Of a stretch of DNA of 48,907 bases, positions 1 to 41,631 are shown piece after piece. A model generated the notes under the pieces. That model was given only the letters and a program-made list of their open reading frames with translations, searched no databases and was not told where the DNA came from. This stretch comes from a virus, in IMG/VR virus record IMGVR_UViG_3300025729_000003, positions 1-48,907 of that record; one strand, written 5' to 3'. A program made the translations under genes and the position numbers. Each line of letters begins with the position of its first letter. Within the stretch, counting starts at the first letter, position 1.

Positions 1-1083
1 CTTTACAAGCGCTGAGCCAATGACTTGATGCATATCATAATACTTGTATTCTGCTAGACGGCCGCCGAAGATGACTCCTTCTTCACGTCGAGAAAGGACC
101 TCGTACTTTTTGTACATCTTGTTATTCTTGTCATTGTTAATAGGGTAGTAGGGTGTTTTTCCGCGAGTATACTCATCAGGATACTCTTTAGTCACAATTG
201 TATTCGGTATTTTTGAGGCAGTTTGTGGTTGAAAATGCTTGTGCTCAAGAATTCTAGTAAAAGGTGTGTCTGGATGTGTATGATTTATCACGGCGTTACC
301 CTGGTAGTCTCCTCTAAGCTCTTCATGCTCGAAGCGTAAAGTACGATACTCTAACTCTCCAAACTGAAACCCGAAATATTCATCTACCTTCCCTGTAAAT
401 ACGACCGTATTAGCTAACGAGTCTAGCTCGTGCTTATCTAAGAAGTAATCGACTCCAGTACGTACTTCAATACCTTTCAGCATATTTTGTACCATAGATG
501 TATACCCTTCAACAGGAATACCCTGGTATTTATCAAAGAAATAATTTTCATCAAATGTAAGTCTAATTGGTAGTCGTTTAATAATAGAAGCCGGTAGTTC
601 TCTAGGGTCCCTCTGCCACTGCTTCATAGTATATCCCTTAATAAAAGTTTCATATACTTCTCTACCTACCTGTGACAAAATCCAATCTTCTAAGTTATCT
701 GGATTCTCGCAAGGTATACGCACTTCTTTTAACTTCTCTTCCGCCTCAGCCGGGGTCGTGACGCCCCACAACTGGTGTAGCGTCATAAGATTGATTGGGA
801 AAGAAAATATCTTATTACCGAATCTTACCTTCGGCTTGTTGATATAGCTGTTAAACGTTGCAAAGCGATTTACGTAGTCCCATATTTTGTCATTATTGGT
901 GTGGAATATATGGGCACCATATACATGAACGTCAATCCCGCTTCTTTTCTCACTATATACATTACCACCAGTGTGCTGCCTTTTATCTATGACAAGACAC
1001 TTATACCCCGCATCTGTCATTTCTCTAGCGAATGTTACGCCAAATAAACCTGAACCCACAATCAGGTAGTCGTACTCTTTCAT
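1..1083 (-). CDS. glf: UDP-galactopyranose mutase, 3' end cut by window edge
   Basis: This flavoenzyme interconverts UDP-galactopyranose and UDP-galactofuranose, the donor of galactofuranose for glycans. I translated 361 codons; the frame is open at the window edge, so about 10-30 C-terminal residues are missing compared with the usual 370-390. Visible are an N-terminal FAD dinucleotide site (GSGLFG, residues 10-15), the TGGN segment after the first Rossmann unit, the family signature GAHIFHT near residue 57, and the late motif GRLAEYKYYDMHQV near the edge, which matches the flavin/substrate region of the family. The ATG shares one base with the stop of the upstream ThyA-family gene (TAATG), so translation is probably coupled. 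The family call is secure. The phage role is inferred: either DNA sugar modification or surface glycan synthesis. Confidence 0.94.
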   Translation of the reverse strand, partial: MKEYDYLIVGSGLFGVTFAREMTDAGYKCLVIDKRQHTGGNVYSEKRSGIDVHVYGAHIFHTNNDKIWDYVNRFATFNSYINKPKVRFGNKIFSFPINLMTLHQLWGVTTPAEAEEKLKEVRIPCENPDNLEDWILSQVGREVYETFIKGYTMKQWQRDPRELPASIIKRLPIRLTFDENYFFDKYQGIPVEGYTSMVQNMLKGIEVRTGVDYFLDKHELDSLANTVVFTGKVDEYFGFQFGELEYRTLRFEHEELRGDYQGNAVINHTHPDTPFTRILEHKHFQPQTASKIPNTIVTKEYPDEYTRGKTPYYPINNDKNNKMYKKYEVLSRREEGVIFGGRLAEYKYYDMHQVIGSALVK

Positions 1084-2108
1084 TACTGAACTCCTTTTTG
1101 ATTAAAATAGTAACCACTAAAGCTTGCGCTTCTTATAATTTGAGAAGCAGACTTCTTTAGACCGATTTTTCTTAGCCTCGCCGCTGTGAGCACAAGGGCC
1201 CAATCCCTAAATTTTCCCGGGCTGCTTAACCATGATGGATAAAATTTGATCAAGGCGTCTTCAATCCTTGACATATCTTGGCAGCTCTGTAGCTCTTCCT
1301 CGAAGCTACAGAGCTTCTTTACACTTAAGAATGTATCCTCTATATCTCCAGTTAATGGAGGCATTGGACCGTGGTTCTTGTGCATTAGACGACTGGTTTT
1401 TATACTGTCGCTCTTCAAAATATCTTCCACCATTCCAAAATGCTTTTCATAGATGTGTAAAGAATTACTTGTATGTGTATACGTACCAACGTCTGCGCCG
1501 ACTTCGTTTGCAATCATCTCTTGAAAAATAGTGAATGCAGGAATGTCGTATGCAATACCAAACACAAGATCAGAGCTTCTCATATTAACAACCTGGTGTA
1601 ACTTATTATCCCTAATAAAGAATTGTAGTGCCAGCGTACATGGAACATCTAGCTTTGCGTCGATAGAATCGTCTGGTACCCTTAGGTGCATAACGGCCCT
1701 TCTAGAATCTGGATCACGCTTTAGTTCGTTAACGACATATTCTATTTGTGAATATCTTCCTTGCGCAATCTTGTCATGACGCTTAAAAAGACGCGCTCCA
1801 TAAGCTGAATTTGCAGTAGATCCATCGTCACTAATGTTATTCCAAAATCCTGAGTACTTCGATATCCACTCAGTGCTGTTATTACCTGACAGATACCACA
1901 CGAGCTCTGCCACCATGTAACTCATACTAAACTTTCTTTTTGAGACATACGGTATTCTGTCTCTAATGTTGTTTATGGTAAACGAAGCGCCGATAATCTC
2001 TTTGATGTTTTGACCTCGCGGAGAAGAGTCATATTGAGGGTTATCCATTACCTGTTTAAGTAAGCCTAGATAACACTCTGTAAAGTTTTCGTATGTTCCA
2101 AGATGCAT
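1083..2108 (-). CDS. ThyA-fold pyrimidine methylase/hydroxymethylase, probably dCMP hydroxymethylase-like
   Basis: This is a member of the thymidylate synthase fold of 341 residues. Glu68 lies in AELVWYL, the catalytic Cys157 in DVPCTLALQF, the nucleotide-binding stretch at 175-190 reads NMRSSDLVFGIAYDIP, and LHIY retains the His/Tyr pair. Thymidylate synthases have Asn after the Phe of this stretch to read the uracil ring; here it is Asp188, as in T4 dCMP hydroxymethylase (gp42). EIIGASF and VNMRS-D-VFG also resemble gp42. Residues 240-341 form an extra C-terminal region of unknown role. A separate ThyX gene at 8082-8795 can supply dTMP, which frees this enzyme for another substrate. SD GAGG stands 7 bases before the ATG. 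A dUMP-specific or ordinary ThyA role is the alternative. Confidence 0.8.
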   Translation of the reverse strand: MHLGTYENFTECYLGLLKQVMDNPQYDSSPRGQNIKEIIGASFTINNIRDRIPYVSKRKFSMSYMVAELVWYLSGNNSTEWISKYSGFWNNISDDGSTANSAYGARLFKRHDKIAQGRYSQIEYVVNELKRDPDSRRAVMHLRVPDDSIDAKLDVPCTLALQFFIRDNKLHQVVNMRSSDLVFGIAYDIPAFTIFQEMIANEVGADVGTYTHTSNSLHIYEKHFGMVEDILKSDSIKTSRLMHKNHGPMPPLTGDIEDTFLSVKKLCSFEEELQSCQDMSRIEDALIKFYPSWLSSPGKFRDWALVLTAARLRKIGLKKSASQIIRSASFSGYYFNQKGVQ

Positions 2109-2144: not shown

Positions 2145-5100
2145 TCATATACGAAGAAGCTTAACTTTACTCATGGAAGTTTGGTACCCGAAATCATTCT
2201 TCTTCACTTCTGCGCAGCAAAGACTGTAAAGTGGAAGGTCTGTTTGTCCATCCCAGCCCCAGCAAAACATTCTAAAGTTTTTACCATCCAAGCCAGCTGC
2301 TGTGACTAAAAGATATGGCTTCTTATTCTTCGTCAACTTTGCCTTAACATCTGATACTAGAAACCAATATACATCGTGTCCATGGGCATCAATCTCATCT
2401 ATACAACGTACATCCTTTTGAGCTAATCTATCCTGCACTTTTTCGCTAACAAGCGTTGAAGCGTTAAACGACCCGAAATGCTTCATGCTATTTTCGACCA
2501 TCTCTCTTCTGGACCAATTTCCTACATCCTCTGTCTCCAGAAGGGCTTCCCTAAAGTTATTACGCCCTCGTTCAGGGTCTTTCTTTGTCCACTTTTTGAT
2601 ATCATTTTGTTTTCCAATAACAACTTCGTGCATCTGCTTATAACTTGTAAATGTCTTTCCTTCACCGATCATATTCATAGATCTAAATGCTCTAATGTTT
2701 ATTAAGGCTTCTAGTGCACGCTTATTAAATTTAGAGTGACGCCACTTGCCCTCATCTGTCCATAGCAAATCGTCTACAGCTCTATACGGCCTGTTTGCAA
2801 CTAGCTCATCGATAGCAGACTCACCGATGCCCTTACAAGATAACAGCGATGGCATAAATTTCTTACCATCAAGAATAGTCCAGTTTTTTGTTGCGTAATT
2901 GATATCAATGGGAACAACACTGTATCCGAGAGCCTTAACTTCAGCAAACGCCTTGGCACGCTTTTTATCATTACCAGACATCGCTTCTAGATAAGCGCAC
3001 AACCACTCTTCCTCGAAGTAAGTTAAAAGCCATGCACAGTAGTATGAGTCAATCGCATAACATACAGCATGTGACTTGTTAAACCCATAGCCGGCGAAGA
3101 ACAGAATCTTTTCATATAGACCGTCTGCTAGTTGGCGGTCTACTCCATTGTTAACAGCGCCGGCGACGAATTGGTCCTTGATACCTCTAGCCTTAGCAAG
3201 AGACTCAGCTGCTTCGGACGCCTTACGCTTCATAATACTGCGACGCACTGTGTCTGTTTCCTCCTCTGGGAAACCAGCCACCACAGAACACAGCTTCATG
3301 ATTTGCTCCTGGAATACAATCAGACCGTAAGTTTCTTCTAGCACTTCCTTGATTAGCGGGTGACCATAATCAATATCATCCGGATTATTTTTGGCGTTGA
3401 TATAAAGCTTGTCAACCTTTGCGGTCAAAGGACCAGGTCGATAGATAGAAGTCAGTGTTGCAATATCGATGATACTTTTAGGTTTGGCCTTCTTAAATAG
3501 GTTTTGGGCACCCCTACCTGCTAACTGAAAGATTCCAGCCCAACGACCCTTAGCGTACACATGTTCATATACATGCTGATCATCCATATCAAGAACCTTA
3601 GGATCCATGTTTTTGTTGAACCATTCATACACCTGCTCAAATGTTGGGTTCTCTATTCCTTCTTTACGTTGTAATACTAGCTCAATAGTGCGCTGAATAA
3701 CACGAAGCGTCTCTAGACCAAGTAGATCAAACTTAATCCATCCAAAGGTTTCGAGATGTTTATAATTCATCCCTTCTGCCCATGGCGTTTGTAGCTCACC
3801 GCGGGCTTTAATAAGAGGCATTCTTTCAGCTATGTTTTCAGCGACAATGCAGCCACCCGCATGGCGACCAAGAGCCTTGTTTTGTTTAAACAAGACCTGA
3901 ATTGGGGCAGCAACCTCTGGATGCGCCTCGATAAACTCCCTGAACGTTTTTGAATGAGCAATTGCATCTTCGTATAATAGAACGAATAGGTTTTTATCAG
4001 TACCCTGCTTAAAGACAGCTCGCTTTACATCATCCTCAACCGGGGCTAACGCCTTATTTACTTCGCTAAATGGAATGCCATAAAAGCGAGAGATGTCTTT
4101 AACGAGAGACTTAAGCTTGAATGTGTTATAATTGGAAATTGGAACAATGTTTTCATCACCCCACTTGTCTTTCATCATATTGATAAGCAAGTCTCGATCA
4201 CCTACATCTGTATCGATATCTGGAGCACCTTCACGAGAAGGATTTAAAAACCTACCAAACATAAGGTCATACTCGAACGGATCAACATCTGTTAGCTTAA
4301 GAACGTAGGCGACAAGACTTCCTGCAGCGGAACCGCGACCAGGACCTACAAGCATCGCTTGCTTAGCGATTTTAATGATCGCCTCCATAGTCAAGAAGTA
4401 TCTAGAGAAATTCTTGTCCTTGATAATCTTTAACTCGTGTTTGATTCTTTCGACGTATTTCGGGTCACCCGCTAAACCTCTTTCTACAAGACCTTTCTTA
4501 CACGCCTCAAGCAGAGCCTTATCATCAGTCATACCTTCAGGCACGACGTACGATGGAAGCTTCATCGTTCTGTCAGGTGTGATTGTAGATATTTTGCTAT
4601 GAACAATGTCGTGAGGGCGCTCGATGGCGTCCTTGATAACCTGATCATCATAAAAATCCATGCCCGAAGCTGATTCTAGAAAAGTGTCCCACACTTGACC
4701 GCTGTTTTTAGGATATAGCTCACACTTGAGGTCTTCCCTTGATTGCGGGAGCTTGGAAGGATCAAACTCCTTATAATTTAACCAACCTAGCTTCTTGTAG
4801 AGCTCACGCTCTCTCCAGTGCTCAGGACGAGCATAATGAGAATCCGTCGTGACAACTAATTTATCGTTTAGACCATTGCTATTTGCAAACTCAACAATTG
4901 CACGATTTACGAGATGCTGAGCCGGTAGTTTATTAAATTGTAACTCTAAGTGAACATCATCAATACCAACAGCGTCTACAAGACCTTGATATGCATTTCC
5001 GACACCTGTCATAACCTTAGAGCGAAACGAATCATCATCCATCAAATTGTGCTTTAGATCATCAAACTCTACTTGCTGCGCATGTTTAAACACCTCGTAC

Positions 5101-5765
5101 GCTATAGGACCGCCAATACAAGCTGTAGATACCATCAAGTGGCCTCCTTCAGCTGCTTCTTTTAGCATCTTATAATCAATACGAGGAAAGCGATAGAAGC
5201 CCTCTCTGTAGCCTCTACTCACAAGATGAAATAACCGCTGTAGACCTTCAGAGGTCTTTGGTAAAACGACTAAATGATGTCGTCGCTTGATTGGGTCATA
5301 AAACTTGCCAGACTTCGTTTCTTCCTCATTCTCGACCGTAAGGCCTGCTTCAGATTTTCCGATATCCACAATCTCATCATCGCCATCAACAATAGCTGTT
5401 AAAGGCGTCGTGATGGCTTCTCTTTGCGCTCGCAGGATGTGTAGCGATTCCTTATCACCCTTCTTTGCAGCTTGACGTATCTCCATGTCGAGGTTCCATG
5501 CCTCTAGATCAGGGTGTACGTACATTTCGCAGCCTGGTACAAACTTAAATTTACCTCCGCGCTTGTGTATCTTTTCAGCGTGCAAAAATGCGTGACCGAA
5601 TGAGTTCATGTGACCGTGGTTAGTAAGACACCAGCCGTCCATACCATTCTCTATGACATAATCGATGTGTTCTTGAGGGTATCCTAAACCATCGAAGGTA
5701 CTAAACCCGTCATGAGAGTGAAGTGATATAAACTTGTTTGGTGCGACTAAATTTGTCTTACGCAT
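2145..5765 (-). CDS. dnaE: Family C DNA polymerase (Pol III alpha/DnaE-like)
   Basis: Large bacterial-type replicative polymerase of 1206 residues, presumably the phage replicase. The N-terminal PHP domain (about 11-310) shows LHSHDG at 15-20, TNHGH at 48-52, PGCE at 77-80 and TDSHY at 307-311, so most metal ligands appear present. The polymerase core has GPGRGSAAGS at 474-483 and the catalytic PDIDTD at 515-520; FDLLGLETL farther on matches the region of the third catalytic Asp. A helix-hairpin-helix-like region (CKGIGESAIDEL) and an OB-like tail follow. Length is close to the bacterial 1160. The start has SD AGGAG about 7 bases before the ATG, and a promoter candidate lies just upstream. 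A DnaQ-like exonuclease elsewhere in the window could provide proofreading. Confidence 0.96.
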   Translation of the reverse strand: MRKTNLVAPNKFISLHSHDGFSTFDGLGYPQEHIDYVIENGMDGWCLTNHGHMNSFGHAFLHAEKIHKRGGKFKFVPGCEMYVHPDLEAWNLDMEIRQAAKKGDKESLHILRAQREAITTPLTAIVDGDDEIVDIGKSEAGLTVENEEETKSGKFYDPIKRRHHLVVLPKTSEGLQRLFHLVSRGYREGFYRFPRIDYKMLKEAAEGGHLMVSTACIGGPIAYEVFKHAQQVEFDDLKHNLMDDDSFRSKVMTGVGNAYQGLVDAVGIDDVHLELQFNKLPAQHLVNRAIVEFANSNGLNDKLVVTTDSHYARPEHWRERELYKKLGWLNYKEFDPSKLPQSREDLKCELYPKNSGQVWDTFLESASGMDFYDDQVIKDAIERPHDIVHSKISTITPDRTMKLPSYVVPEGMTDDKALLEACKKGLVERGLAGDPKYVERIKHELKIIKDKNFSRYFLTMEAIIKIAKQAMLVGPGRGSAAGSLVAYVLKLTDVDPFEYDLMFGRFLNPSREGAPDIDTDVGDRDLLINMMKDKWGDENIVPISNYNTFKLKSLVKDISRFYGIPFSEVNKALAPVEDDVKRAVFKQGTDKNLFVLLYEDAIAHSKTFREFIEAHPEVAAPIQVLFKQNKALGRHAGGCIVAENIAERMPLIKARGELQTPWAEGMNYKHLETFGWIKFDLLGLETLRVIQRTIELVLQRKEGIENPTFEQVYEWFNKNMDPKVLDMDDQHVYEHVYAKGRWAGIFQLAGRGAQNLFKKAKPKSIIDIATLTSIYRPGPLTAKVDKLYINAKNNPDDIDYGHPLIKEVLEETYGLIVFQEQIMKLCSVVAGFPEEETDTVRRSIMKRKASEAAESLAKARGIKDQFVAGAVNNGVDRQLADGLYEKILFFAGYGFNKSHAVCYAIDSYYCAWLLTYFEEEWLCAYLEAMSGNDKKRAKAFAEVKALGYSVVPIDINYATKNWTILDGKKFMPSLLSCKGIGESAIDELVANRPYRAVDDLLWTDEGKWRHSKFNKRALEALINIRAFRSMNMIGEGKTFTSYKQMHEVVIGKQNDIKKWTKKDPERGRNNFREALLETEDVGNWSRREMVENSMKHFGSFNASTLVSEKVQDRLAQKDVRCIDEIDAHGHDVYWFLVSDVKAKLTKNKKPYLLVTAAGLDGKNFRMFCWGWDGQTDLPLYSLCCAEVKKNDFGYQTSMSKVKLLRI

Positions 5766-6797: not shown

Positions 6798-7166
6798 TTA
6801 CCCATCCAAACGATTACAGATCTTATTATGCTTGTCTTTATACGACTTGAAGAATTCATCACTATCTACGCCTACCAGCACAAGTATTGCAGTAAAATAT
6901 TTATAAGCATCAATCATTTCTTCAAGAAATTCAGCTCTATCAAAATCGCCAGATCCGGTTCTATGATCTTTCCAGTTTTTAAGATGTAATAAAGCTTCGA
7001 ATAGCTCTTCCATACCACGGAAGGCAAACTCTCTAATTGCTTTTTGGTTCTTCTTATCTGTTAAGTCAACAGGCCATGGTGGATAAGCATCGGGAATATG
7101 CTTATTGATTTTTACCATGAAGTCTTCACGAAGAGAAAATATTTCTTCTAAGCGATCATTAGACAT
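6798..7166 (-). CDS. All-alpha dUTPase/dCTPase-like NTP pyrophosphohydrolase
   Basis: 122 residues with the helical metal-binding pattern of the dimeric dUTPase/MazG superfamily: EELFE at 53-57 followed by EEMIDAY at 82-88 (E-x2-E ... E-x2-D), then FFKSYKDKHNKICNRL at the end, typical of phage dimeric dUTPases. Such enzymes convert dUTP to dUMP, or, as in T4 gp56, also dCTP to dCMP. The latter would feed the ThyA-fold hydroxymethylase candidate and lower unmodified dCTP. Which nucleotide it prefers cannot be read from sequence. Its ATG overlaps the stop of the upstream gene by one base (TAATG). Confidence 0.75.
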   Translation of the reverse strand: MSNDRLEEIFSLREDFMVKINKHIPDAYPPWPVDLTDKKNQKAIREFAFRGMEELFEALLHLKNWKDHRTGSGDFDRAEFLEEMIDAYKYFTAILVLVGVDSDEFFKSYKDKHNKICNRLDG

Positions 7167-8081: not shown

Positions 8082-8795
8082 CTATTCTATAGAATTTAGC
8101 GATTTTTGATAAGCGCCAACAGACTCCGGCCATAGTCCACTTGCTATCTCAAGACAGGCATTTGCAACTTGTTGGATTTCCCATTGGGCACCGTCATGAG
8201 TCCTTAAACTCACAAACTTAAGTAAGTTAGACAGGTTAACTGTACCGTAATATTCGGTATATAAGCTTTGCGGTAAAACACCTCGAGCTTGCTCTCTGCA
8301 AACCCCTACTTCCATCAACCGGCTGAATAGGGTTAGACATGATTCGTGGTGCTTTTTAATACAAGAAGATGCAGTTATACCAAAGCCTGAATCACTTAGG
8401 TCTGGATAGACAACAGGATTAATAGAATCTATATTAGAGGCCTGTCTATTGGATTTATGCTGGGTTCTAAATTTTTCTGGCTCGTAAAATGACATGTCGA
8501 ACTCTGTATATCTACGACTTATCTCGTTATAGCTCCATGTTCTATGACGATGGTGCTGACTTCTTATAAAAAGCGGAACCTTAAATCTAAAAGTTATAAC
8601 GTTGTGTTCAAAAGTGCTCGTATGCTTATGTTTAACAAGATACTTGATGAGCTTCTTATCTTTTTCGTCAAGTGTATCCTTATGTTTACCAAATGATACT
8701 CTTGCGCTATTTACGATCGTCAAATCATCGCCCATGTGGTCGACATATTCTACGAAACCAATACCATCATTATACAGATCAATCTTTTTTTTCAT
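8082..8795 (-). CDS. thyX: Flavin-dependent thymidylate synthase
   Basis: 237 residues, the normal length for ThyX, which makes dTMP from dUMP using FAD, NADPH and methylenetetrahydrofolate. The diagnostic RHR-x7-S motif is complete at residues 83-93 (RHRTWSYNEIS), followed by RRY. Upstream are the HxSxFEH-type segment (HKHTSTFEHNVITFRF) and VPLFIRSQHHRHR. The C-terminal half has the expected CREQARGVLPQ and SLRTHDGAQWEIQ segments. The start lies 7 bases after the stop of the acidic 1200-residue protein. The SD is weak (AGG). Its presence with a ThyA-fold gene in the same unit argues that the latter does something else. Confidence 0.96.
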   Translation of the reverse strand: MKKKIDLYNDGIGFVEYVDHMGDDLTIVNSARVSFGKHKDTLDEKDKKLIKYLVKHKHTSTFEHNVITFRFKVPLFIRSQHHRHRTWSYNEISRRYTEFDMSFYEPEKFRTQHKSNRQASNIDSINPVVYPDLSDSGFGITASSCIKKHHESCLTLFSRLMEVGVCREQARGVLPQSLYTEYYGTVNLSNLLKFVSLRTHDGAQWEIQQVANACLEIASGLWPESVGAYQKSLNSIE

Positions 8796-12458: not shown

Positions 12459-13466
12459 TTAAGCCGAGAAGCTATAAACACTCGCCACGACTCGATAAGG
12501 ATCACAGTTTGACGCAGGACGTCTATCTTCAGCGTAGCCTTTCCATTCAGACTGCACAGTTGCTGTTGGTATTCTTATAGATGTATTTCTAGATGCAATG
12601 CCATAAGAAAACTTATCGTAGCTGGACGTTTCATGCAATCCCGTCATTCTGCTTTCATTGTTTGATCCGTAACGTAGCATGTCGCTGATGTGACTATTCG
12701 ATGCTTTTTCCATAATACTAATAAATAGTCCTTCCGTACCTTCATCGCGCATTTTTGTGGTAGAAAAATTTGTATGACATCCTGAACCATTCCACCCAGC
12801 GTAAGGCTTAGGCGCCCATTCAACACCTACATCTTGAGTTTCAGCCATTATTTGTAATAGGTATCTACTCATCCATAGGTCATCACAAGCTTGTAGCGCG
12901 TCCTTAGCAAATACCTGATATTCCCACTGTCCTGGACTTACCTCGGTATTATACCCAACAACCTTAATACCTACCTTGTTACATAACGCAGCATGTTCCC
13001 TAACAAGATGACGATGCTTTATAGGACCCCCAGATGAACAATAGTATCTGGTGTCATTGATCGGCAAGCCATCTTTTGGCCATAAGACGTTTTTTCCGGC
13101 CTTAGTTAGAAAGTACTCTTGCTCAAAGCCGACCCATAAACCTGTGTCACCAACTTCCTCTATCACGGTTCTTAAATTATACCTGTGATTTGTTTCATGA
13201 GGAGTCTTTTTGTCGTCAGGAATGCACACCTCACATAGTACCGTATAATGCGTTTCTGAAAGCTGATATACTCTTTTAGGGACTAACAATCTCTCAGAGT
13301 CAGAAGTGGTTGCCTGGCACGTCGACGAGCCATCAAAATTCCACTCTGATATCGGAAGGTCAAACTTCCCGTTCTCATCAAGAAAAACATCCTCTACGCG
13401 TGTTTTTGACCTTACAAGCGGAGACTCAAGTCCGTCAACCCAAACATAGTCTATATGAATAATCAT
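12459..13466 (-). CDS. Type II glutamine synthetase
   Basis: 335 residues, close to full length for GSII, which makes glutamine from glutamate, ammonia and ATP as a cytoplasmic decamer. Family landmarks in order: WNFDGSSTCQA near 43, VGFEQEYFL near 110, SPGQWEYQV near 178, GWNGSGCHTNFST near 225, RNTSIRIP near 288 and EDRRPASNCDPY near 313. These include the metal-binding Glu residues and ATP/phosphate-binding Arg residues of the family, so it looks active. The pattern is GSII (eukaryotic/rhizobial/actinobacterial type), not the larger GSI of most bacteria. ATG with an AAGGA SD. It follows the ClpP-like gene by 13 bases in the nrdJ-iscU-clpP run. Nitrogen metabolism support during infection is the likely role. 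Confidence 0.95.
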   Translation of the reverse strand: MIIHIDYVWVDGLESPLVRSKTRVEDVFLDENGKFDLPISEWNFDGSSTCQATTSDSERLLVPKRVYQLSETHYTVLCEVCIPDDKKTPHETNHRYNLRTVIEEVGDTGLWVGFEQEYFLTKAGKNVLWPKDGLPINDTRYYCSSGGPIKHRHLVREHAALCNKVGIKVVGYNTEVSPGQWEYQVFAKDALQACDDLWMSRYLLQIMAETQDVGVEWAPKPYAGWNGSGCHTNFSTTKMRDEGTEGLFISIMEKASNSHISDMLRYGSNNESRMTGLHETSSYDKFSYGIASRNTSIRIPTATVQSEWKGYAEDRRPASNCDPYRVVASVYSFSA

Positions 13467-13479
13467 TTATTTCTTTCCT

Positions 13480-14082
13480 TTATTCAAAGTCAATGTCTAC
13501 CGATACCTTTATATGCAGCTTAGGTACCCTCAATTGATTTGCTAAATTATGCTTCTTGGTTTCATCCGCGTCTAGAAACCAGTCTGCATGCTTCTTTTTG
13601 TCGACTATCTTCATAAAGTGATCATCTTTTTTACCACAATTTCTAGCCATCATTGTATAGATCTTGGTATTTAATCTATCCGCTTCCTTAGCACCGGCCT
13701 TGAGTTCTTCTACCTTACCAAAGTCCATACTGGATACGTCATGAATCATGACTGTCGCATTGGGATCCATAAACCTTAGACCTTCTTCCCCAAATGAGAA
13801 TAAGATTGCGCCGCAACTCATTGCCTTACCTTCTACTATAGTAGCAACAGGAAGCTCTGAGTGCTGTATTGCGCTTATCATAGCCATTAAGCTATAGACT
13901 TGCCCACCATAAGAATCTATAACAACTGGTATAACTTTTTGACCTGTATTATGCGCGGCAGCCATCTCTAGCGCGAACTTTTTAGCAGCGTCTTCGTCGA
14001 ACTTATTTACCCTTATGATAACAGGCTGCTTTCTTAACTCTATTTCTTTGACCTTTGGGTCGATGTTACTTGTCCAATGCAC
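13480..14082 (-). CDS. ClpP-like serine peptidase (S14 family)
   Basis: 200 residues. IDSYGGQVYSLMAMISAI matches the INSPGG oxyanion region of ClpP, Ser89 is in GKAMSCGA, His114 in TVMIHD and Asp167 in HADWFLDADE, so the Ser-His-Asp triad appears complete. Phage S14 enzymes often act as prohead proteases, but no capsid or portal gene is near and this copy sits among metabolic genes, so a proteostasis or regulatory role is equally possible. The start is a GTG with strong SD AGGAG 8 bases upstream; it overlaps the end of the iscU-like gene by 17 bases. No Clp ATPase is seen in the window. Confidence 0.88.
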   Translation of the reverse strand: MHWTSNIDPKVKEIELRKQPVIIRVNKFDEDAAKKFALEMAAAHNTGQKVIPVVIDSYGGQVYSLMAMISAIQHSELPVATIVEGKAMSCGAILFSFGEEGLRFMDPNATVMIHDVSSMDFGKVEELKAGAKEADRLNTKIYTMMARNCGKKDDHFMKIVDKKKHADWFLDADETKKHNLANQLRVPKLHIKVSVDIDFE

Positions 14083-14458
14083 TGTTTTTTCTCCTATAAT
14101 CTTTTATCGCTGCTTTTATCGCATCTTCAGCAAGAACAGAACAATGTATCTTTACTGGCGGTAGCGAAAGCTCTTTAACTATATCTATGTTCTTGATTTG
14201 TTCTGCTTCATAAATCGTTTTTCCTTTTACCAACTCCGTGACTAGAGATGATGATGCTATGGCAGAGCCGCAGCCAAACGTTTTAAACTTCGCATCCTCT
14301 ATTATACCGTGACTATTAATCTTTAGCTGTAATCTCATAACATCACCACAAGATGGTGCGCCAACAAGGCCAGTGCCAACGTTAGAGCTACTCTTATCGA
14401 GAACGCCAACATTTCTTGGATTGTCATAATGATCTATTACCTTATTAGAATATGCCAT
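14066..14458 (-). CDS. iscU: IscU/NifU-like iron-sulfur cluster scaffold
   Basis: 130 residues, the normal IscU length. The residues that hold the nascent cluster are all present, at the same positions as in E. coli IscU: Cys37 and Asp39 in APSCGD, Cys63 in FGCGSA, His105 and Cys106 in PPVKIHCS. The IscS/NifS desulfurase that supplies sulfur is not in the window, so host IscS would be the partner. The gene starts 3 bases after the nrdJ stop and overlaps the ClpP-like gene, so it belongs to that operon. The target cluster protein is unknown; class II RNR and ThyX do not need Fe-S clusters. Confidence 0.95.
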   Translation of the reverse strand: MAYSNKVIDHYDNPRNVGVLDKSSSNVGTGLVGAPSCGDVMRLQLKINSHGIIEDAKFKTFGCGSAIASSSLVTELVKGKTIYEAEQIKNIDIVKELSLPPVKIHCSVLAEDAIKAAIKDYRRKNSALDK

Positions 14459-14461
14459 TAG

Positions 14462-16984
14462 TTATCCGCACTTTGATGAGCCGCATGTAAGACAAATTGC
14501 ACACCCCTCTTGGTATACGACATTGGGATCTTCACAGCAATTATCAATTACGCCATTTCCAGCCTTAGTACCGTCTGCGATATATTTTTTAAGACACCTA
14601 GCTGTAACTTTTGCAAAGCTGAACAAATCGGCGTCTCTATCCTTTTGTAGCTGCTCTACCATATATTGTACTGGCACACCGTGGCGTAATGCCAGCGATA
14701 TAGTCCTCGTGAAGGCAGAGTGATTAGGGTTGTCAAACACCTTGACGATATCTTTTATAACAAACTCATCGCCGCTTGACCCGATCGTTAAGTCGTACTT
14801 AGAATTAACAGATTTTCTAGACCTGCGACGAATCAAGCCTACGGTATACTTTCTGGGGATTTCAACATACTCAGAAAGACCGCCGATAATCTCATATGGC
14901 TTTCCATTCATAAGCCCGACAAGTATTGTCCAGGCCTCTCCTTGTATTTTAGCTTGGTGAATATCACACTCAAGCTCTTCCGGTCTCTTAGGGGCAGACC
15001 TATATGAAACATCGTTACTTTCTCTAGGGTCTTCTTCGCTCTTGTTGTCTGAAGCTACAAGTACACCGGATCTGCTACCATCTCTATAGACTGTAACACC
15101 CTTACATCCGGTTTCCCAACCCCGCATATACACATTCTTGACTGTGTCTACGGTTACATCCGATGGCAAATTTGTCGTATTTGAGATTGCATGGCACACC
15201 CATTTTTGTGCGGCAGCTTGTAGATCAACTTTTGATACCCAATTAATCTCATTTGCAGTTGCGCCGGCGTATGGGCTCATTTGTACCAGACCATCATTAT
15301 CTATCGTGGCATCCTCACTGATAGTATCACCAATTACCGTGTTCATCCACTTTTTAAATCCGTGATGATATACCGTGTATTCTTGCCACTTATCTCCAGA
15401 ATCATCTATAAAATCAATTCTTGCAGTCTGATCTTGACCTGTCAATTTCTTTCTGCGCGTGTAATGAAGCATAAATGCCGGCTCAATACCGCTTGTTGTT
15501 TGTGTCAGAACAGATACTGAACCAGCTGGAGCTGTTGTCGTAATCGCTATATTTCTTCTACCATACTTTTTAGACAGCTCTTTTATTTCTGGATCTGCAT
15601 CGAATATGCGCTGAATAAACTTGTGATTTTTTTCCTTACTAAAATCGTATACACCAAAAGGACCTCTTTCTTTTGCCAGTAAACAGGACGATCGATACGC
15701 GGATATAGATAAAGTCTTGTATATTTTTTCTACCATACTAATTGACTTTTTGGATCCGTACTGAATGCCAGACATTGCTAGCGCGTCACCTAATCCGGTA
15801 ATACCTAGACCTGTGCGGCGACCTTTGAGGGCAACTTCTCTTACGTTAGTCCACAAATCTTTTTCTATTCTCTTAGCAGAACTAGACTCTGGATCTTGCT
15901 CTATTTTAGAAAGAATTTTATCTACCTGCTCAACCTCAAGGTCAATCATGTTATCCATAAGGCGTTGGGCCTTCGATACAATATCTGACATCTTTTCATA
16001 ATCAAAGCTGGCTTTTTCTGTAAACCCTTCTTTGACGAAGCTCGTTAAGTTTAGAAGCATTAAGCGACAGCTGTCGTACGGAGATAATATGATTTCCCCA
16101 CAAGGGTTTGTTGATACAGATCCAAAACCGTCATCAGCATAAGCATCAGACGGAGTCATATCTAACGCGGTGTCCCAAAATAGTACACCAGGTTCTGCAG
16201 AACTATGGGCTCCTTCTATGATTTGATGCCATATTTCTGACGCATTATCCATAGCACTAATTTTTGGATTTTTTGAAGTTACAGGCCACCTTAGTTCAAC
16301 CTGCTTATCTTCTTTAACTGCGTTCATAAACTCGTCAGTTACACGAACAGAAATATTTGCCCCAGTTACTCTTGACAAGTCCTTTTTAATTTTAACGAAG
16401 TCTCTTATCTGCGGGTGATGAACTGATATTGTTAACATCAGTGCACCGCGGCGACCACCTTGCGCAACCTCACGACAAGAATTTGAAAAGCGGTCCATGA
16501 ATACTTCTATACCGTCTGTCGTACGAGCAGCGTTAGCAGTTGTTAGTCCTCTAGGCCTTATGGTGCTAAGATCAAATCCCACACCGCCGCGGCGTTTGGC
16601 AATTTGAACCAGCTCTTGATCAGATTTTAGAATTCCGCCGTAGCTGTCTTCTGGCGCTGGAATCACAAAGCAATTGGACAATGACTGTATTCTTGACCCA
16701 TTACCAATACCTGACATTGGCGACCCTTGAGGCACTACATACTTAAAGTCCTTTAGAAGTTTGTATATCTCGTCACTAGACATAGGGTTAGGATATTTGC
16801 TTTCAATTCTTGAAAGCTCTCCAGCTATTCTTTTATGCATATCATCAGGACTTTTTTCTAAAAAAAGACCATCCTTATTCGTAAGAAGATATTTTGTTAC
16901 GATAACATTGGCAGCAAGTTCATCGCCACCGAAATATTCTAAGCATTCATCGTATGCCTGCTGATACGTAAAAGTTTCGCTCAT
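14462..16984 (-). CDS. nrdJ: Adenosylcobalamin-dependent (class II) ribonucleotide reductase
   Basis: Single-chain reductase of about 840 residues making deoxyribonucleotides using vitamin B12. It shows the first redox Cys in LSNCFVI, the active-site motif NPCGEI (thiyl-radical Cys and Glu), the following DSCRLMLLNL Cys, TTTAPAGSVSVLTQTTSGIEP in the phosphate-binding region, then TVYRDGSRSG and a TSCPD-type C-terminal domain ending in a Cys-rich tail (CCEDPN, CAICLTCGSSKCG). No small subunit gene and no glycyl-radical motif are present, consistent with class II. The ATG at 16984 (MSETF) has SD GAGGA about 8-9 bases upstream and is preferred; an ATG at 16999 is possible. First gene of the nrdJ-iscU-clpP-glnA run. 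Confidence 0.95.
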   Translation of the reverse strand: MSETFTYQQAYDECLEYFGGDELAANVIVTKYLLTNKDGLFLEKSPDDMHKRIAGELSRIESKYPNPMSSDEIYKLLKDFKYVVPQGSPMSGIGNGSRIQSLSNCFVIPAPEDSYGGILKSDQELVQIAKRRGGVGFDLSTIRPRGLTTANAARTTDGIEVFMDRFSNSCREVAQGGRRGALMLTISVHHPQIRDFVKIKKDLSRVTGANISVRVTDEFMNAVKEDKQVELRWPVTSKNPKISAMDNASEIWHQIIEGAHSSAEPGVLFWDTALDMTPSDAYADDGFGSVSTNPCGEIILSPYDSCRLMLLNLTSFVKEGFTEKASFDYEKMSDIVSKAQRLMDNMIDLEVEQVDKILSKIEQDPESSSAKRIEKDLWTNVREVALKGRRTGLGITGLGDALAMSGIQYGSKKSISMVEKIYKTLSISAYRSSCLLAKERGPFGVYDFSKEKNHKFIQRIFDADPEIKELSKKYGRRNIAITTTAPAGSVSVLTQTTSGIEPAFMLHYTRRKKLTGQDQTARIDFIDDSGDKWQEYTVYHHGFKKWMNTVIGDTISEDATIDNDGLVQMSPYAGATANEINWVSKVDLQAAAQKWVCHAISNTTNLPSDVTVDTVKNVYMRGWETGCKGVTVYRDGSRSGVLVASDNKSEEDPRESNDVSYRSAPKRPEELECDIHQAKIQGEAWTILVGLMNGKPYEIIGGLSEYVEIPRKYTVGLIRRRSRKSVNSKYDLTIGSSGDEFVIKDIVKVFDNPNHSAFTRTISLALRHGVPVQYMVEQLQKDRDADLFSFAKVTARCLKKYIADGTKAGNGVIDNCCEDPNVVYQEGCAICLTCGSSKCG

Positions 16985-17003
16985 GTTGCTTTTCCTCATT
17001 CAC

Positions 17004-22695: not shown

Positions 22696-23220
22696 CTACC
22701 AGGAGTTTCTAGTATCAGATACGTATATGATTATTGATCCATCATCTTGAGGACCCACTTGAAGAGGGACACTTAAACTTAGCTTACCAGAGTTTTTTGC
22801 GCCAAATAACGTGTGCTGGATGTATTTTATTCCGTTTCTTTGATCAATCGCAGTAGGTGTTGTCATAATACCCTTTTTACCACCCTTGGTGATTGTCGCA
22901 AGACCAGAATATGCTTGACCCATTGTCTCATTAGTAAAAGCCTGTTTTAGTATATCAGATACACCTGATAAATCAGCTCCAGTCTTATCAATGCCAAGAC
23001 GCTTCATTAAAGCATCTGGATCAGAGTCCGCTAAAGCTCCTGCTTCTTTAACCTGTTTGCTCCATGCACCACGACCAACTGATACCCCTATTTCACCAGG
23101 TTTGGTATCTTTCTTTTTTGGCTTTTTTGGTTTCTCTTTTTTTTCTGACTTGGTACCAGACACATCACTTTGTTCAAGTATAGCCTTTCTAACAATGTCT
23201 CTAAAATCTAACTCATCCAT
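22696..23220 (-). CDS. Hypothetical protein, 174 residues
   Basis: Begins MDELDFRDIVRKAILEQSD, an amphipathic helix like that of the 71-residue protein at 21577. A lysine/proline linker follows (KKEKPKKPKKKDTKPG, about 26-42), then a folded part (about 45-174) ending QVGPQDDGSIIIYVSDTRNSW. No known family is recognised. It overlaps the end of the family A polymerase gene by 8 bases and could be a partner of replication enzymes by position only. The GGAG upstream is about 10-12 bases from the ATG, longer than usual. Confidence 0.75.
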   Translation of the reverse strand: MDELDFRDIVRKAILEQSDVSGTKSEKKEKPKKPKKKDTKPGEIGVSVGRGAWSKQVKEAGALADSDPDALMKRLGIDKTGADLSGVSDILKQAFTNETMGQAYSGLATITKGGKKGIMTTPTAIDQRNGIKYIQHTLFGAKNSGKLSLSVPLQVGPQDDGSIIIYVSDTRNSW

Positions 23221-24400
23221 TTTTTTTAAGCTCCGTAATCTTTAGTGGAAAATTTCCCAGCCCTTTAATCTTAAACCCTTCATATAAGTATTCATTAACC
23301 CTGCTTATTTTTGATGGATCAGCTTCGAAGATAAGAGCGTCATGAATTACAAATAAAGGCGTAACCTCATTATGAAATATTCTAGTGAATTCCTCAAACC
23401 CAAGAAGCGATATGTCTACAGCTGTAGACTGTAAGAAATTGTTTATCAAAATGGAGTCTCTAGCGTCATCGACAACTATAGGTCTATCGAAATAATTACT
23501 TATAACTCCTTTGTCTCTAGACTGTGACCTTAGTATACCAGTCAATCCGTCTACGCAAAAATATTCTTTTACGCTTTTCATAAGTTGAAGTGCTGTAACA
23601 TTACTTTTTTGATTCTTCAGCTGCTTTTCCAAGCTATACTTGCTAGCGCCGTATAAAGAGCAAAGGACGGCTAGCTTTGCAACGTCCCTGCAAACATCTA
23701 GACCCGCTTGTTTGATAAAAGATGTATAAACATCTTGAACCACATCTCGACTCGCTAAGTTCGACGCTACCCTAGGTTCTAGCGAAGAAAAATCTATTTC
23801 GTATAAAGCTGTATTTGGCGAAGATGGGATAAAGACGGAGCGATATTCTTTTTTTAATGTTAGTACTTGAGGGCCAGCCTTTATCGTCAACCGACCCGTC
23901 TTTGTTGATACTCTATCGTACATAGGAATTGGCGCATAACCAGAGGAAGACATTCCTAATATAGACTTAAGTATATGGTTTTCATCCTTAGCAAGGATAC
24001 TTTTACACATATCTAAGTCCACTCTAGAATGAGCGAGTCTAGAAAACAACTTATTCGACTCAGTATACACTTCTGTGTAGCTTAGGTTATCTAGAGCAGA
24101 CATACCCTGCTGTAGATCTTGTACAAACCTCTGAAACAACTGCTTAAAGTGCTTCTTAGGGATCACCATATTCCAGGGAGCTATATCTACACCGCATGCT
24201 TTCATTGCTTTTAGATATTTTTCCGGAGCCAACGGCGATATTTCTATATTGAAAAGCTTGAATAATGGTTCAACAGATCTATGATCAGAGGTAAACCCAT
24301 ATGTGACCTCACTAGCAGATGAATCCGACCAACTAAAGGACTCTTTTCCTAAAAGAAGGTTTCGAAAACCGGTCACCCTATTATGAACAAGCAAATCCAT
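23213..24400 (-). CDS. Family A DNA polymerase, polymerase domain only
   Basis: 395 residues, less than half of bacterial Pol I; both nuclease domains are absent. Motif A is DFSSLEPR (Asp203, Glu208), motif B R-x3-K-x7-YG at 238-251 and motif C IHDALIFE (His353, Asp354); both catalytic Asp are present. The position of E. coli Phe762 is Leu246 and the Glu after the motif C Asp is Ala355. The first 140 residues match the thumb region poorly. It could perform repair or primer processing beside the DnaE-like replicase. The ATG has no SD, but TATAAT ends 5 bases before it (possible leaderless mRNA). Confidence 0.9.
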   Translation of the reverse strand: MDLLVHNRVTGFRNLLLGKESFSWSDSSASEVTYGFTSDHRSVEPLFKLFNIEISPLAPEKYLKAMKACGVDIAPWNMVIPKKHFKQLFQRFVQDLQQGMSALDNLSYTEVYTESNKLFSRLAHSRVDLDMCKSILAKDENHILKSILGMSSSGYAPIPMYDRVSTKTGRLTIKAGPQVLTLKKEYRSVFIPSSPNTALYEIDFSSLEPRVASNLASRDVVQDVYTSFIKQAGLDVCRDVAKLAVLCSLYGASKYSLEKQLKNQKSNVTALQLMKSVKEYFCVDGLTGILRSQSRDKGVISNYFDRPIVVDDARDSILINNFLQSTAVDISLLGFEEFTRIFHNEVTPLFVIHDALIFEADPSKISRVNEYLYEGFKIKGLGNFPLKITELKKNG

Positions 24401-37968: not shown

Positions 37969-40900
37969 TTATATGTCTAATCCGGCGTTTGTTACCACAA
38001 AATCAAGTGAGATAAACTCAACCGACCGAACCGGCTGTAAGAATATCTTACCTCTTACTGTGTTGTTTTCAATATCAGCTTGAGTTGTGGTTGTTGTATC
38101 AATCTGAACCTTGAAACGTTCTAGTCCTTGTTGCGCCTGTATCCTCGAGAGGACAGGAGTAACTGCTGCAGAGAATTTCGACAGCGTTGACTCCCTATTT
38201 GGCTCAAAGAGGAATGTGTCACCTATTTTTCTAACCTGTCTTCTGATATCTATCAGAAGTCTACGGACGTTGACTCTGTCTAAAGCGCTTTGGGCGGCGA
38301 GCAATGTCTTTTGTCCAAAGACTACCACATCGTTAGATTGAGCAAATGATGTAAGCGGATTAATATCCACATCATAAAGTGTATCCAGGTTGTCTCTGTT
38401 TAGCTTGACCTGTGTCTCTAAGACATTCTTTAGCGCACCACGGGTGAAACCAGCGGGTGCGTACCAAGGAAAGGCCACAGAGTCGTTTAAGCCAAATGCA
38501 CCGAGTACCGCAACACTTGGAGGTATTTGACTAGAGGCCCCAGTTACTTGGTCTTGAAGTATTACATCAGGAAAATATGCGGCCGCAAAGCTGGTATCTA
38601 TATTTCTAGAACCGAATGTTGTCGCAGTATTCGTAACACTAACTTCTTGTACTGATGATGTTACGGGAGTGTTTAGGGTATCAATTACCGGTACGTCCAT
38701 AATGTATAGAGCGTCAAAGCGATCCTCTATTTTATCAATAGCATGATCAGTAATAACGGGTTGTCTAATACCCGGTATCGCGAGTAGTTGAATGTCAACA
38801 TCCGAACGTTCACCTAGCACGTCAATAGCTTTCTTGTATGCTGCAACTGTTGGACCATTATCTAGTCCTTGATTTGTGTCAGCCATCTCTCTTCTGATCG
38901 CTATATCTGTCATTTTTGACTTATTATCATCAAAGACGTTTAGTCCATCGAAGCCACCTTGAGGGATCATCGTGAATCTTAGGTACTTTCTAGCAGATAA
39001 TAAACCGAAGTCTTTGTCGACGTTCAGCAGTCTAGTATTCGAAGTTGATACACCGTCTATATCCAGCATGGTTGAAGTTGCAACACCGTCTCTTCTATAA
39101 ACAGCTCCAGCCCATTGTTCACTGTCGGCCTGATCAGCGGTTGTTGTAATAACCTGTATTTTATCGAGAGAAAATTTGTTGTTATTGAACCTATCGCAAT
39201 CAAAGATTGTACCAGTAACATCAGATACGCCTGGGTTATCACCAACTGATAACGCTTGTGTTAAGACAAGGTGATCAGGAAAGTATACACCATACGACGA
39301 TATAGAATGATTGAAAGCCATAGATGCATTTGGTTCCGTTGCACTCTTTTGCTTGGTCGTTTGTATACCCCAGTATAAAGACGAGTTAACTCTCTTTTTA
39401 GGAGCCTGTCCTTGAGCGATAGTAAGTCTCATAGGAATTGGAGGCTGTACTAATTGCTGTAAGGTTTCTACGTTTCTAAATTCAGCGGTACCTGCATCTG
39501 TTGCGCCAGGTGAATCATTCGAAATTTCTCCAATGATACTTGAACCAGATGTCACCAGATGGCTTATACCTCTAAAGCCTATGGGTAATGCCGTATCAGG
39601 TATCTCACCACGTTCAAGAGCTACGGAGGGGGATATCCGGATATAGTTGGAAGCATTTGCATAGCTTCCTTCTACCACTAGCTTTTGACCGCCGATTCTT
39701 TTATCGAAGTCGTAAAATATATGGTAATCCCCAATAACTCGAGTGATATATCTCTCGTCATTAGGATTTAAGCTTAACTTGTTAAATCGCTCAACGACAG
39801 TCGCGTTAGTGTCTTCATCGTAGTAGTCTCTTACTAATAGATCAAACGTTCCCCACTTGTTATTTGAGTTTGTTGACTTATTAATATTTTCAATAGAAAC
39901 CTTTACCCTAGTATTCCCTAATGAACCATCGTCGAGACAATGGACAGTAAATAAGTCTTTAGCTAGCCCACCAAATTCTTGAGAGATGACAGTAGGAAAC
40001 TTCGCTGTCTTAAATCTATCTGTAAAAGACTCAAAGTTAGGTACGGTTGAGGATCCTGTATCACGAGCAGCAGAACCCGTTACCAAGAATGCAATATCTT
40101 CATTCTTTATAGCTGTACCTTCTTTTACACCGTCAAAGCTAGCAGAGAATGTAGTTTGCATATAGTCTGCAGATGCTGTTACTGCCGCATATGTTGGGTG
40201 AATATCATAATGAGCGTAAAGAAGGTGACCAGCTTCCTGCGTTTTTGCTGGGTCAGTGTTAAACACGTTAGCAAAATAGTTGGCAGCTTCAGGATCAAAT
40301 GATGCCGTCACAATCGTGGGGTATGCCTTTGTATGCGAATGACCATTTTGTAAAAGAACAAACTCTTGTCGGCCGGCAGCTATATTTACAGCGCCGACTG
40401 TGGAACCCGCGTCTCCAATATCTCTGTTTAGAAATACTGATGATCTATTTGTAGCACCTGGTGCGCCCCATGGAGTATTATTCGTTACCGAAGGTCTCGA
40501 AGCACTAAGCGTTAGGTTAACACCAGATGGCGCAAGTAAAACGCCTCTTATTATCGGGTGAACGTCGGTTAGACCGGCTTCGCTAAATGGTCTAAGAGTC
40601 GCAGATTGACTCATCATAGTAGCTAAGATATGGGTTCTACCAAGTCCTGAGTGCGGACCGAGTGCGCCAGTAAAAAATACATTAGTGTTGTCAGCAACAC
40701 CAGAAGTCGCAAAGAATACAGAGGGAGTTGTATTACCTACACCACCTGTTCTAGTAATCTTTAGCGTAGCATCATTTCCTTGTAAGCCACCCTTGTCTAT
40801 TGTTAACGCAAGTAGTCTTCCTGTATCAACGCATGTTAAGCCAGGATATCCGCCTGTACCAACCCCACCAGTGCTAGCACCGTATACGATTCTTTTCGCT

Positions 40901-41631
40901 GAGTCTGCGGCATTTTGCACACCATTTATGGCATCATCTATTAACAGCGCTAATTCGTCGCCAGAGACAGAGTTTGAAGCATCGGCGCCTCTAATACAGA
41001 TATTAATTGTATTAGCTGCGGCGGCTTCAGGAATTGCCGGGTCTGTACCAGTAACATCTGGCATTGTAAACTGTATGGTAAGAGTTTCTAGCGCGCCGGT
41101 GGATGATACAGCAGGTGGTATTACGATTGTTCCTGTATAGAGAACAACCTTATCTGCTTGTGGACCACCGAATGCAGAGGCTGGAGAAGCATTTCTTGTC
41201 TCTAGACCTCTAGCAGAACTAAGTGTACCAGACGATGCAGCTAAGTTAGGACCTGCAAACGGATTGTCAGCGAGTATTCCGCTACTAGCCCTTGGTAAGC
41301 GTTCACCGACTGTAAAACCAGCGTTCGTTACTGCACCTGAAGCTGTTCGCTTCTTACCATCACCAACGCCTAATGTTTTAACATAGGTACCAGCGTTTGC
41401 ATAGTTTAACCATTGTCTTAAAGCCATCGGGCCAAATAGATCGGTATCTACGTCGCCAAACTCCGCAATGAAGTCAGAGAAGTTAGCGACAGTAATTGGT
41501 ACAAAAGCTCGTCCTTGCTTTGCGGTACCAATGACACCGGCTGGAATGCCACTAGGTCCTGTTTGTGATGGACCTGAGAGGTCTATCTCTCTTGTGGATA
41601 CGCCTGGACTTTTAAAAGTAAGCTCAGCCAT
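37969..41631 (-). CDS. Tail sheath protein, large paralogue 1
   Basis: 1220 residues, nearly twice T4 gp18 (659). The N-terminus MAELTFKSPGVSTREIDLSGPS, IPAGVIGTAKQG and FVPITVANFSDFIAEFG is the typical sheath entry; the C-terminal domain (VALGAFG-like SVAVLGAFGLNDSVAFPWYAPAGFTRG, FVVTNAGLDI) is the conserved sheath core. The extra length sits in the middle (about 100-900) and probably forms surface-exposed domains. A second sheath gene with the same ends lies directly upstream. SD AGGAGA. Confidence 0.93.
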   Translation of the reverse strand: MAELTFKSPGVSTREIDLSGPSQTGPSGIPAGVIGTAKQGRAFVPITVANFSDFIAEFGDVDTDLFGPMALRQWLNYANAGTYVKTLGVGDGKKRTASGAVTNAGFTVGERLPRASSGILADNPFAGPNLAASSGTLSSARGLETRNASPASAFGGPQADKVVLYTGTIVIPPAVSSTGALETLTIQFTMPDVTGTDPAIPEAAAANTINICIRGADASNSVSGDELALLIDDAINGVQNAADSAKRIVYGASTGGVGTGGYPGLTCVDTGRLLALTIDKGGLQGNDATLKITRTGGVGNTTPSVFFATSGVADNTNVFFTGALGPHSGLGRTHILATMMSQSATLRPFSEAGLTDVHPIIRGVLLAPSGVNLTLSASRPSVTNNTPWGAPGATNRSSVFLNRDIGDAGSTVGAVNIAAGRQEFVLLQNGHSHTKAYPTIVTASFDPEAANYFANVFNTDPAKTQEAGHLLYAHYDIHPTYAAVTASADYMQTTFSASFDGVKEGTAIKNEDIAFLVTGSAARDTGSSTVPNFESFTDRFKTAKFPTVISQEFGGLAKDLFTVHCLDDGSLGNTRVKVSIENINKSTNSNNKWGTFDLLVRDYYDEDTNATVVERFNKLSLNPNDERYITRVIGDYHIFYDFDKRIGGQKLVVEGSYANASNYIRISPSVALERGEIPDTALPIGFRGISHLVTSGSSIIGEISNDSPGATDAGTAEFRNVETLQQLVQPPIPMRLTIAQGQAPKKRVNSSLYWGIQTTKQKSATEPNASMAFNHSISSYGVYFPDHLVLTQALSVGDNPGVSDVTGTIFDCDRFNNNKFSLDKIQVITTTADQADSEQWAGAVYRRDGVATSTMLDIDGVSTSNTRLLNVDKDFGLLSARKYLRFTMIPQGGFDGLNVFDDNKSKMTDIAIRREMADTNQGLDNGPTVAAYKKAIDVLGERSDVDIQLLAIPGIRQPVITDHAIDKIEDRFDALYIMDVPVIDTLNTPVTSSVQEVSVTNTATTFGSRNIDTSFAAAYFPDVILQDQVTGASSQIPPSVAVLGAFGLNDSVAFPWYAPAGFTRGALKNVLETQVKLNRDNLDTLYDVDINPLTSFAQSNDVVVFGQKTLLAAQSALDRVNVRRLLIDIRRQVRKIGDTFLFEPNRESTLSKFSAAVTPVLSRIQAQQGLERFKVQIDTTTTTQADIENNTVRGKIFLQPVRSVEFISLDFVVTNAGLDI

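Follow-up and report, generated by a model that had tools for sequence, protein, structure and literature searches.

A predicted dCMP 5-hydroxymethylase gene (hmase) joined to a gene of UDP-galactopyranose mutase (glf) was found at one end of a linear virus contig; galactofuranose, a sugar so far unreported on any DNA, probably decorates the DNA of this virus. We favour, with reasonable but far from complete confidence, a pathway similar to that of T4, in which the phage would itself make UDP-galactofuranose as the sugar donor for 5-hydroxymethylcytosine in DNA; hmase and glf would be the first two genes of an operon for DNA hypermodification that follows the logic of T4, and the same degree of confidence applies to this explanation as a whole. 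The conserved gene of a putative GT-B glycosyltransferase after glf in related viruses, together with the recurrence of the gene combination in other lineages, is strong, though circumstantial, evidence that DNA is glycosylated from a galactofuranose donor.

Gene Content of the Window and the hmase–glf Junction

The window, i.e., the whole stretch of 48,907 nucleotides that was analysed, comes from a virus represented by metagenome sequence alone, and its long genes are all encoded by the minus strand. The following features were annotated:

1–1083, minus strand: glf, encoding UDP-galactopyranose mutase (Glf), 361 codons; the frame is open at the contig end, with the stop codon beyond it
1081–1085, minus strand: TAATG junction of translational coupling, in which the hmase stop and the glf start overlap by base 1083
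1083–2108, minus strand: hmase, encoding a predicted dCMP 5-hydroxymethylase of the ThyA superfamily, 341 aa, with catalytic C157 and cytosine-type D188
2145–5765, minus strand: DnaE-type DNA polymerase III alpha, the next gene upstream of hmase both here and in 12/12 relatives (synteny anchor)
6798–7166, minus strand: MazG-like nucleotide pyrophosphohydrolase (phrog_12184, 2.4e-12), a candidate to remove dCTP and supply dCMP
8082–8795, minus strand: ThyX, flavin-dependent thymidylate synthase (PF02511, 2.4e-48)
14462–16999, minus strand: ribonucleotide reductase large subunit, dNTP supply

On the minus strand, the letters CATTA of plus-strand positions 1081–1085 read TAATG: hmase stops with TAA at positions 1085–1083 and glf starts with ATG at positions 1083–1081, which confirms the one-base overlap described in an earlier note on this DNA. 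In 12 relatives, the two genes overlap at this junction by up to 11 nt or are separated by up to 2 nt. Nucleotide identity to the compared relative is 65% for hmase (pS 0.80, saturated; pN 0.23) and 74% for glf (pS 0.88, saturated; pN 0.10); since synonymous sites are saturated while pN is low, both genes are under purifying selection.

ThyX and ribonucleotide reductase, also named in the earlier note, are indeed present. Their common direction of transcription with hmase holds as well, but is little informative, because every long gene of the window lies on the minus strand. The gene at 6798–7166 had been described as dCTPase/dUTPase-like; its PHROG match agrees with a pyrophosphohydrolase, while the base specificity was not supported, there being no Pfam match, and the PDB search gave no convincing match.

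Several other features of the window were observed. DnaE-type polymerase III alpha (2145–5765) coexists in one phage with a family-A polymerase domain protein (23213–24400). The region directly adjoining the ribonucleotide reductase gene (12459–14458) encodes a glutamine-synthetase-like protein, an IscU/NifU-N scaffold protein and a ClpP-like protease, the last with PHROG matches to head maturation proteases. Tail-sheath proteins are represented by two unusually long tandem paralogues (37969–41631 and 41667–44927), 34% identical over 870 columns.

Predicted dCMP 5-Hydroxymethylase

The hmase protein matches the Pfam family Thymidylat_synt (PF00303) with 135 bits against a cut-off of 24.3, and its best solved relative is CMP 5-hydroxymethylase MilA (5jnh, E 8e-39). 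Asp188 replaces Asn177 of thymidylate synthase (IAYDIPAF vs. VPFNIASY), in agreement with the dCMP-type Asp noticed earlier, and the catalytic cysteine is Cys157; both residues are invariant in 10 diverse relatives. Family membership, Asp188 and Cys157 together allow the enzyme to be predicted as a dCMP 5-hydroxymethylase. Its C-terminal extension of ~100 aa (1083–1384), which neither T4 gp42 nor MilA in its aligned part possesses, is common to the relatives and has a conserved F.GY.F/N segment at its end.

The motif used for comparison, a sequence criterion only, is RSSDLVFGIAYD in hmase, RSNDVVFGFRND in T4 and RSQNCAVVMQLD in RB69. The RSSD..G motif of hmase resembles that of T4 gp42 and MilA, unlike the RSQN of RB69-type 5-hydroxy-dCMP synthase, and the RSQN motif being absent from hmase, this enzyme type and RB69-type arabinosylation were set aside. 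The identification of the ThyA-like enzyme as a dCMP methylase or 5-hydroxy-dCMP synthase instead of a hydroxymethylase, for which it can be said that Asp at this position tells only dCMP over dUMP and that Mosigvirus homologues produce 5-hydroxy-dCMP (PMC13390438), is considered very improbable: the RSQN enzyme lacks the RS.D...G...D pattern common to T4 gp42, MilA and hmase, and the product of a methylase would offer no hydroxyl to the adjoining glycosyltransferase. Database names of hmase read 'thymidylate synthase', as would suit an ordinary enzyme of this kind beside an unrelated host-derived glf, but this identity was rejected and is hardly credible, given Asp188, the fact that none of the thymidylate-synthase equivalog cut-offs of NCBIfam was reached, the conserved operon with a glycosyltransferase, and the presence of ThyX in the same genome, which makes hmase dispensable for dTMP.

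UDP-Galactopyranose Mutase

Glf is usually regarded as an enzyme of cell wall or glycan synthesis. The window protein scores 365.3 bits with the NCBIfam equivalog TIGR00031 (UDP-galactopyranose mutase; cut-off 303.75), is identical to E. coli Glf at 189/353 positions, keeps all the checked sites of the latter (W156, R170, Y181, R247, R278, Y311, R340, Y346 and D348), and contains the FAD motif GxGxxG as GSGLFG. The frame is cut by the contig end at codon 361; glf of the relatives has ~370–380 codons. By equivalog score and active-site conservation, the protein is a UDP-galactopyranose mutase and would have the corresponding activity.

Operon of Related Viruses beyond the Contig End

The search of IMG/VR with a 43-mer from the glf end, for an extension from the same population, returned nothing, and the sole near-identical contig (L002) likewise breaks inside glf. 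Scanning of the window with the glycosyltransferase profile of the relatives produced nothing convincing (best E 0.03), and scanning with Pfam GT2/GT1 produced no matches, which bears out the earlier observation that no transferase is visible in the window.

Twelve distinct relatives were counted, the closest being 85% identical in Glf and 68% in hmase. The order DnaE, hmase, glf and a gene of a ~351-aa protein, all in one direction, is present in 12/12 of them, the last gene overlapping glf by 11 nt or, mostly, lying 10–38 nt from it. In 11/11 contigs that continue, the two genes after it encode a P-loop kinase-like protein of ~175 aa and an epimerase of ~334 aa, and in most continuing relatives inspected the next genes encode a cupin, a DHH protein, an MT-A70-type methyltransferase and dCMP deaminase. 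The epimerase scores best with GalE, but with 157 bits against a cut-off of 262; the roles of the relatives' GalE and kinase and of the window pyrophosphohydrolase are assigned from weak or sub-cut-off matches.

The ~351-aa protein is nearly devoid of sequence matches, one member matching Pfam Glyco_trans_1_2 with 1.6e-4; a search of PDB sequences with its profile gave nothing useful. The AlphaFold model obtained from a more diverse alignment (pLDDT 80, pTM 0.79) has GT-B glycosyltransferases as best PDB matches; T4 beta-glucosyltransferase takes ranks 2 and 4 (E about 1e-9, TM 0.63), and T4 alpha-glucosyltransferase is also among the matches. An earlier model, built from 11 close sequences, was of low quality (pLDDT 54), and GT-B folds dominated its best matches. 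No significant profile link was found to the beta-glucosyltransferase (BGT) of Lactobacillus phage ATCCB or to the nucleotide-sugar-synthetase-like protein of phage VPE25; the link to ATCCB BGT being absent, the protein resembles BGT in fold only. The model points to a GT-B glycosyltransferase, in kind the missing transferase, and its gene is the only one recognisable as a glycosyltransferase gene in the relatives' operon. A putative glycosyltransferase of the kind sought beyond coordinate 1 was found after glf in 12/12 relatives, while the contig of the window itself is cut before it; synteny suggests that the gene should lie just beyond coordinate 1 in this genome as well.

Recurrence in Other Lineages

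The combination of hmase, glf and a putative transferase gene was also found outside the clade of the window. In the isolate Lactobacillus phage ATCCB, genes ATCCB_0045–0047 encode hmase, a homologue of T4 BGT (PF09198, 9e-22; 31% to T4 BGT) and glf consecutively. The L179 locus contains genes of a kinase, TAGT (PF20691, 5e-13), glf and hmase; the L090/L091 locus contains genes of a pyrophosphohydrolase, glf, a thymidylate-kinase-like protein, a glycosyltransferase with 30% identity to that of the window clade, hmase and dCMP deaminase; the L145 locus contains genes of an epimerase, glf, a kinase, a glycosyltransferase, a second epimerase and hmase. In the tree of Glf, the 13 members of the window clade form one branch, ATCCB and L179 lie on long branches, and the placement of L090 is unsure; four changes of the state 'next to hmase' are needed, at least three of them forced by well-supported branches.

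Among 79 hmase loci, near-copies counted, glf occurs within 3 kb in 21, and within 6 kb the glycosyltransferase family occurs in 42, a kinase in 45 and an epimerase in 55; these counts indicate a core of hmase, glycosyltransferase, kinase and epimerase, to which glf is an added module. Conversely, hmase occurs within 3 kb in 19 of the 51 glf loci, and the remaining glf loci inspected lie mostly among glycosyltransferases and methyltransferases. The recurrent linkage of glf to hmase contrasts with most other phage glf genes inspected, which belong to glycan clusters and have no hmase in the vicinity. The glycosyltransferase lineage also occurs without glf (L085/L086/L088 and many others), so that the enzyme of the relatives need not use galactofuranose and its donor is not readable from the family. 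The Enterococcus record OR846590, which contains glf, was set aside, since its neighbouring genes suggest host sequence.

Transferase and sugar genes are exchanged among loci around the conserved hmase core. Examples are a different Glyco_trans_1_2 protein in L132 (9539–10681), second epimerases in L142/L145/L147 and IMP-dehydrogenase-like proteins, recognised by eye, in L145/L147; L163 is also listed among such loci. The T4-like Aeromonas phage 50AhydR13PP (L064, 7992–11261) has a gp42-type hmase and a divergent glf, followed by two ~350-aa families (phrog_14998 and phrog_13881), possible transferases.

Proposed Pathway and Alternative Explanations

In the proposed pathway, dCTP would be converted to dCMP, probably by the pyrophosphohydrolase encoded at 6798–7166, and hmase, as expected from its family, Asp188 and Cys157, would form 5-hydroxymethyl-dCMP. 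The dNMP-kinase-like gene seen in the relatives may carry this product towards hm-dCTP, which would be incorporated by the phage polymerase. On the sugar side, the GalE-like epimerase of the relatives would yield UDP-galactopyranose, and Glf, the family and active site of which are established, would convert it to UDP-galactofuranose. The GT-B enzyme of the relatives could then transfer galactofuranose to the hydroxymethyl group of DNA, this donor and acceptor being presumed; the product, 5-(galactofuranosyloxymethyl)cytosine, may protect the DNA from host nucleases. We lean slightly towards a broader reading in which several phage lineages independently make UDP-galactofuranose and place galactofuranose on 5-hydroxymethylcytosine; the transferase family and the sugar-supply genes (glf, epimerases and the cupin) would be swapped as cassettes, the hmase–kinase core being conserved.

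Glf may instead supply UDP-galactofuranose for a glycan of the virion or host surface, with hmase and the glycosyltransferase using another sugar on DNA and the position of glf after hmase being an accident of operon assembly; we regard this as unlikely, though it deserves serious attention. Most phage glf genes inspected belong to glycosyltransferase clusters; L092, which has the Glf closest to the clade from outside (branch support 86/94), encodes it in a glycan cluster, as do the more distant relatives G001 and G002; and three clade members (G041, G037 and G042) carry a distant glycan cluster while their sole glf adjoins hmase. Against this stands the location of glf between hmase and the glycosyltransferase gene, overlapping or nearly so, in 12/12 relatives, as well as the recurrence of hmase, glf and a putative DNA glycosyltransferase with different transferase families (BGT, TAGT and GT-B). 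No GT1/GT2 matches were found in L090 or L179, nor GT1 matches in ATCCB, and as to a glycan locus around glf, the window has no GT1/GT2 and the relatives' operon none recognised beyond the GT-B gene. The surface-glycan explanation is weakened but alive, and a UDP-galactofuranose pool shared by DNA and glycan is possible. It is less probable still that the mutase serves DNA modification with another furanose, formed from another UDP-pyranose, or with galactofuranose as a second sugar. T6-type phages and Mosigviruses do attach disaccharides to cytosine (PMC13390438), in VPE25, modification of glycosylated DNA was proposed for a galactofuranosyltransferase-like protein near BGT (PMC4999554), and the relatives' operon includes a cupin, but the operon has a single recognisable glycosyltransferase gene and the Glf residues match the galactose enzyme.

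The preferred reading, 5-hydroxymethylcytosine carrying galactofuranose, was already put forward in the earlier note. It gains from the GT-B gene in 12/12 relatives and from the recurrence, and is supported only in part, because the contig is cut before the transferase and the glycan clusters of three clade members could use UDP-galactofuranose. If true, the base with galactofuranose would represent a new kind of DNA chemistry, a furanosyl-hexose DNA base requiring phage-encoded donor synthesis; defences directed at glucosyl-hmC (type IV enzymes and Brig1-type glycosylases) might fail against it, and Glf would gain a role in nucleic acid modification.

Comparison with Known Systems

The literature consulted describes glucose, gentiobiose and pentoses such as arabinose as the sugars carried by phage cytosine. 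In the literature search, with subscription journals thinly covered, no report of Glf or galactofuranose in phage DNA was found, in line with the earlier statement that such hypermodification is not known to be described; the idea itself has a precedent. In 2016, a galactofuranosyltransferase-like protein of Enterococcus phages VPE25/VFW was suggested to modify DNA further (PMC4999554), the nearest prior statement of galactofuranose on DNA found. The DNA of VPE25 withstands bisulfite as well as MspI but can be cut by PvuRts1I, indicating glycosylated (hydroxymethyl)cytosine in VPE25/VFW (PMC4999554). The ThyA-like protein of these phages is 38% identical to hmase over 216 aa, with Asp kept, and its gene shares a cluster with a T4-type BGT; unlike the window clade, the gene cluster inspected lacks glf.

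Similar to T4, in which gene 42 is followed by b-gt, the window clade has an hmase gene in the same block as a GT-B DNA glycosyltransferase candidate, and the relatives' operon includes a kinase and dCMP deaminase. T4 uses UDP-glucose of the host, whereas Glf and a GalE-like epimerase are phage-encoded in the window-clade operon; ThyX, DnaE polymerase and the C-terminal extension of hmase also distinguish the window genome from T4. With ATCCB, the clade shares consecutive genes of hmase, a DNA glycosyltransferase candidate and glf, as judged from the relatives, but has its own GT-B family instead of BGT (PF09198); the description paper of ATCCB contains no DNA analysis. As in the arabinosyl-(hydroxy)cytosine systems of RB69/Mosigvirus, the phage would make its own unusual sugar donor for modified cytosine; unlike the window, those phages have the 5-hydroxy-dCMP synthase type (RSQN) and an arabinose module, with no glf annotated.

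For Rhizobium phage RL38JI, three modified residues replacing dC are cited in PMC7067960, and a table in PMC5977210 lists variably glycosylated hmC. Like the window, its genome contains glf together with a ThyA-like gene, and a GT1-type match, though a weak one, was also obtained there (L201 9947–11155; L213 2464–3243 and 14070–15182); unlike the window, the ThyA-like protein has the RB69-type motif and glf lies ~60 kb away. RL38JI, in which the replacement of dC is chemically known, is possibly a second galactofuranose–cytosine system.
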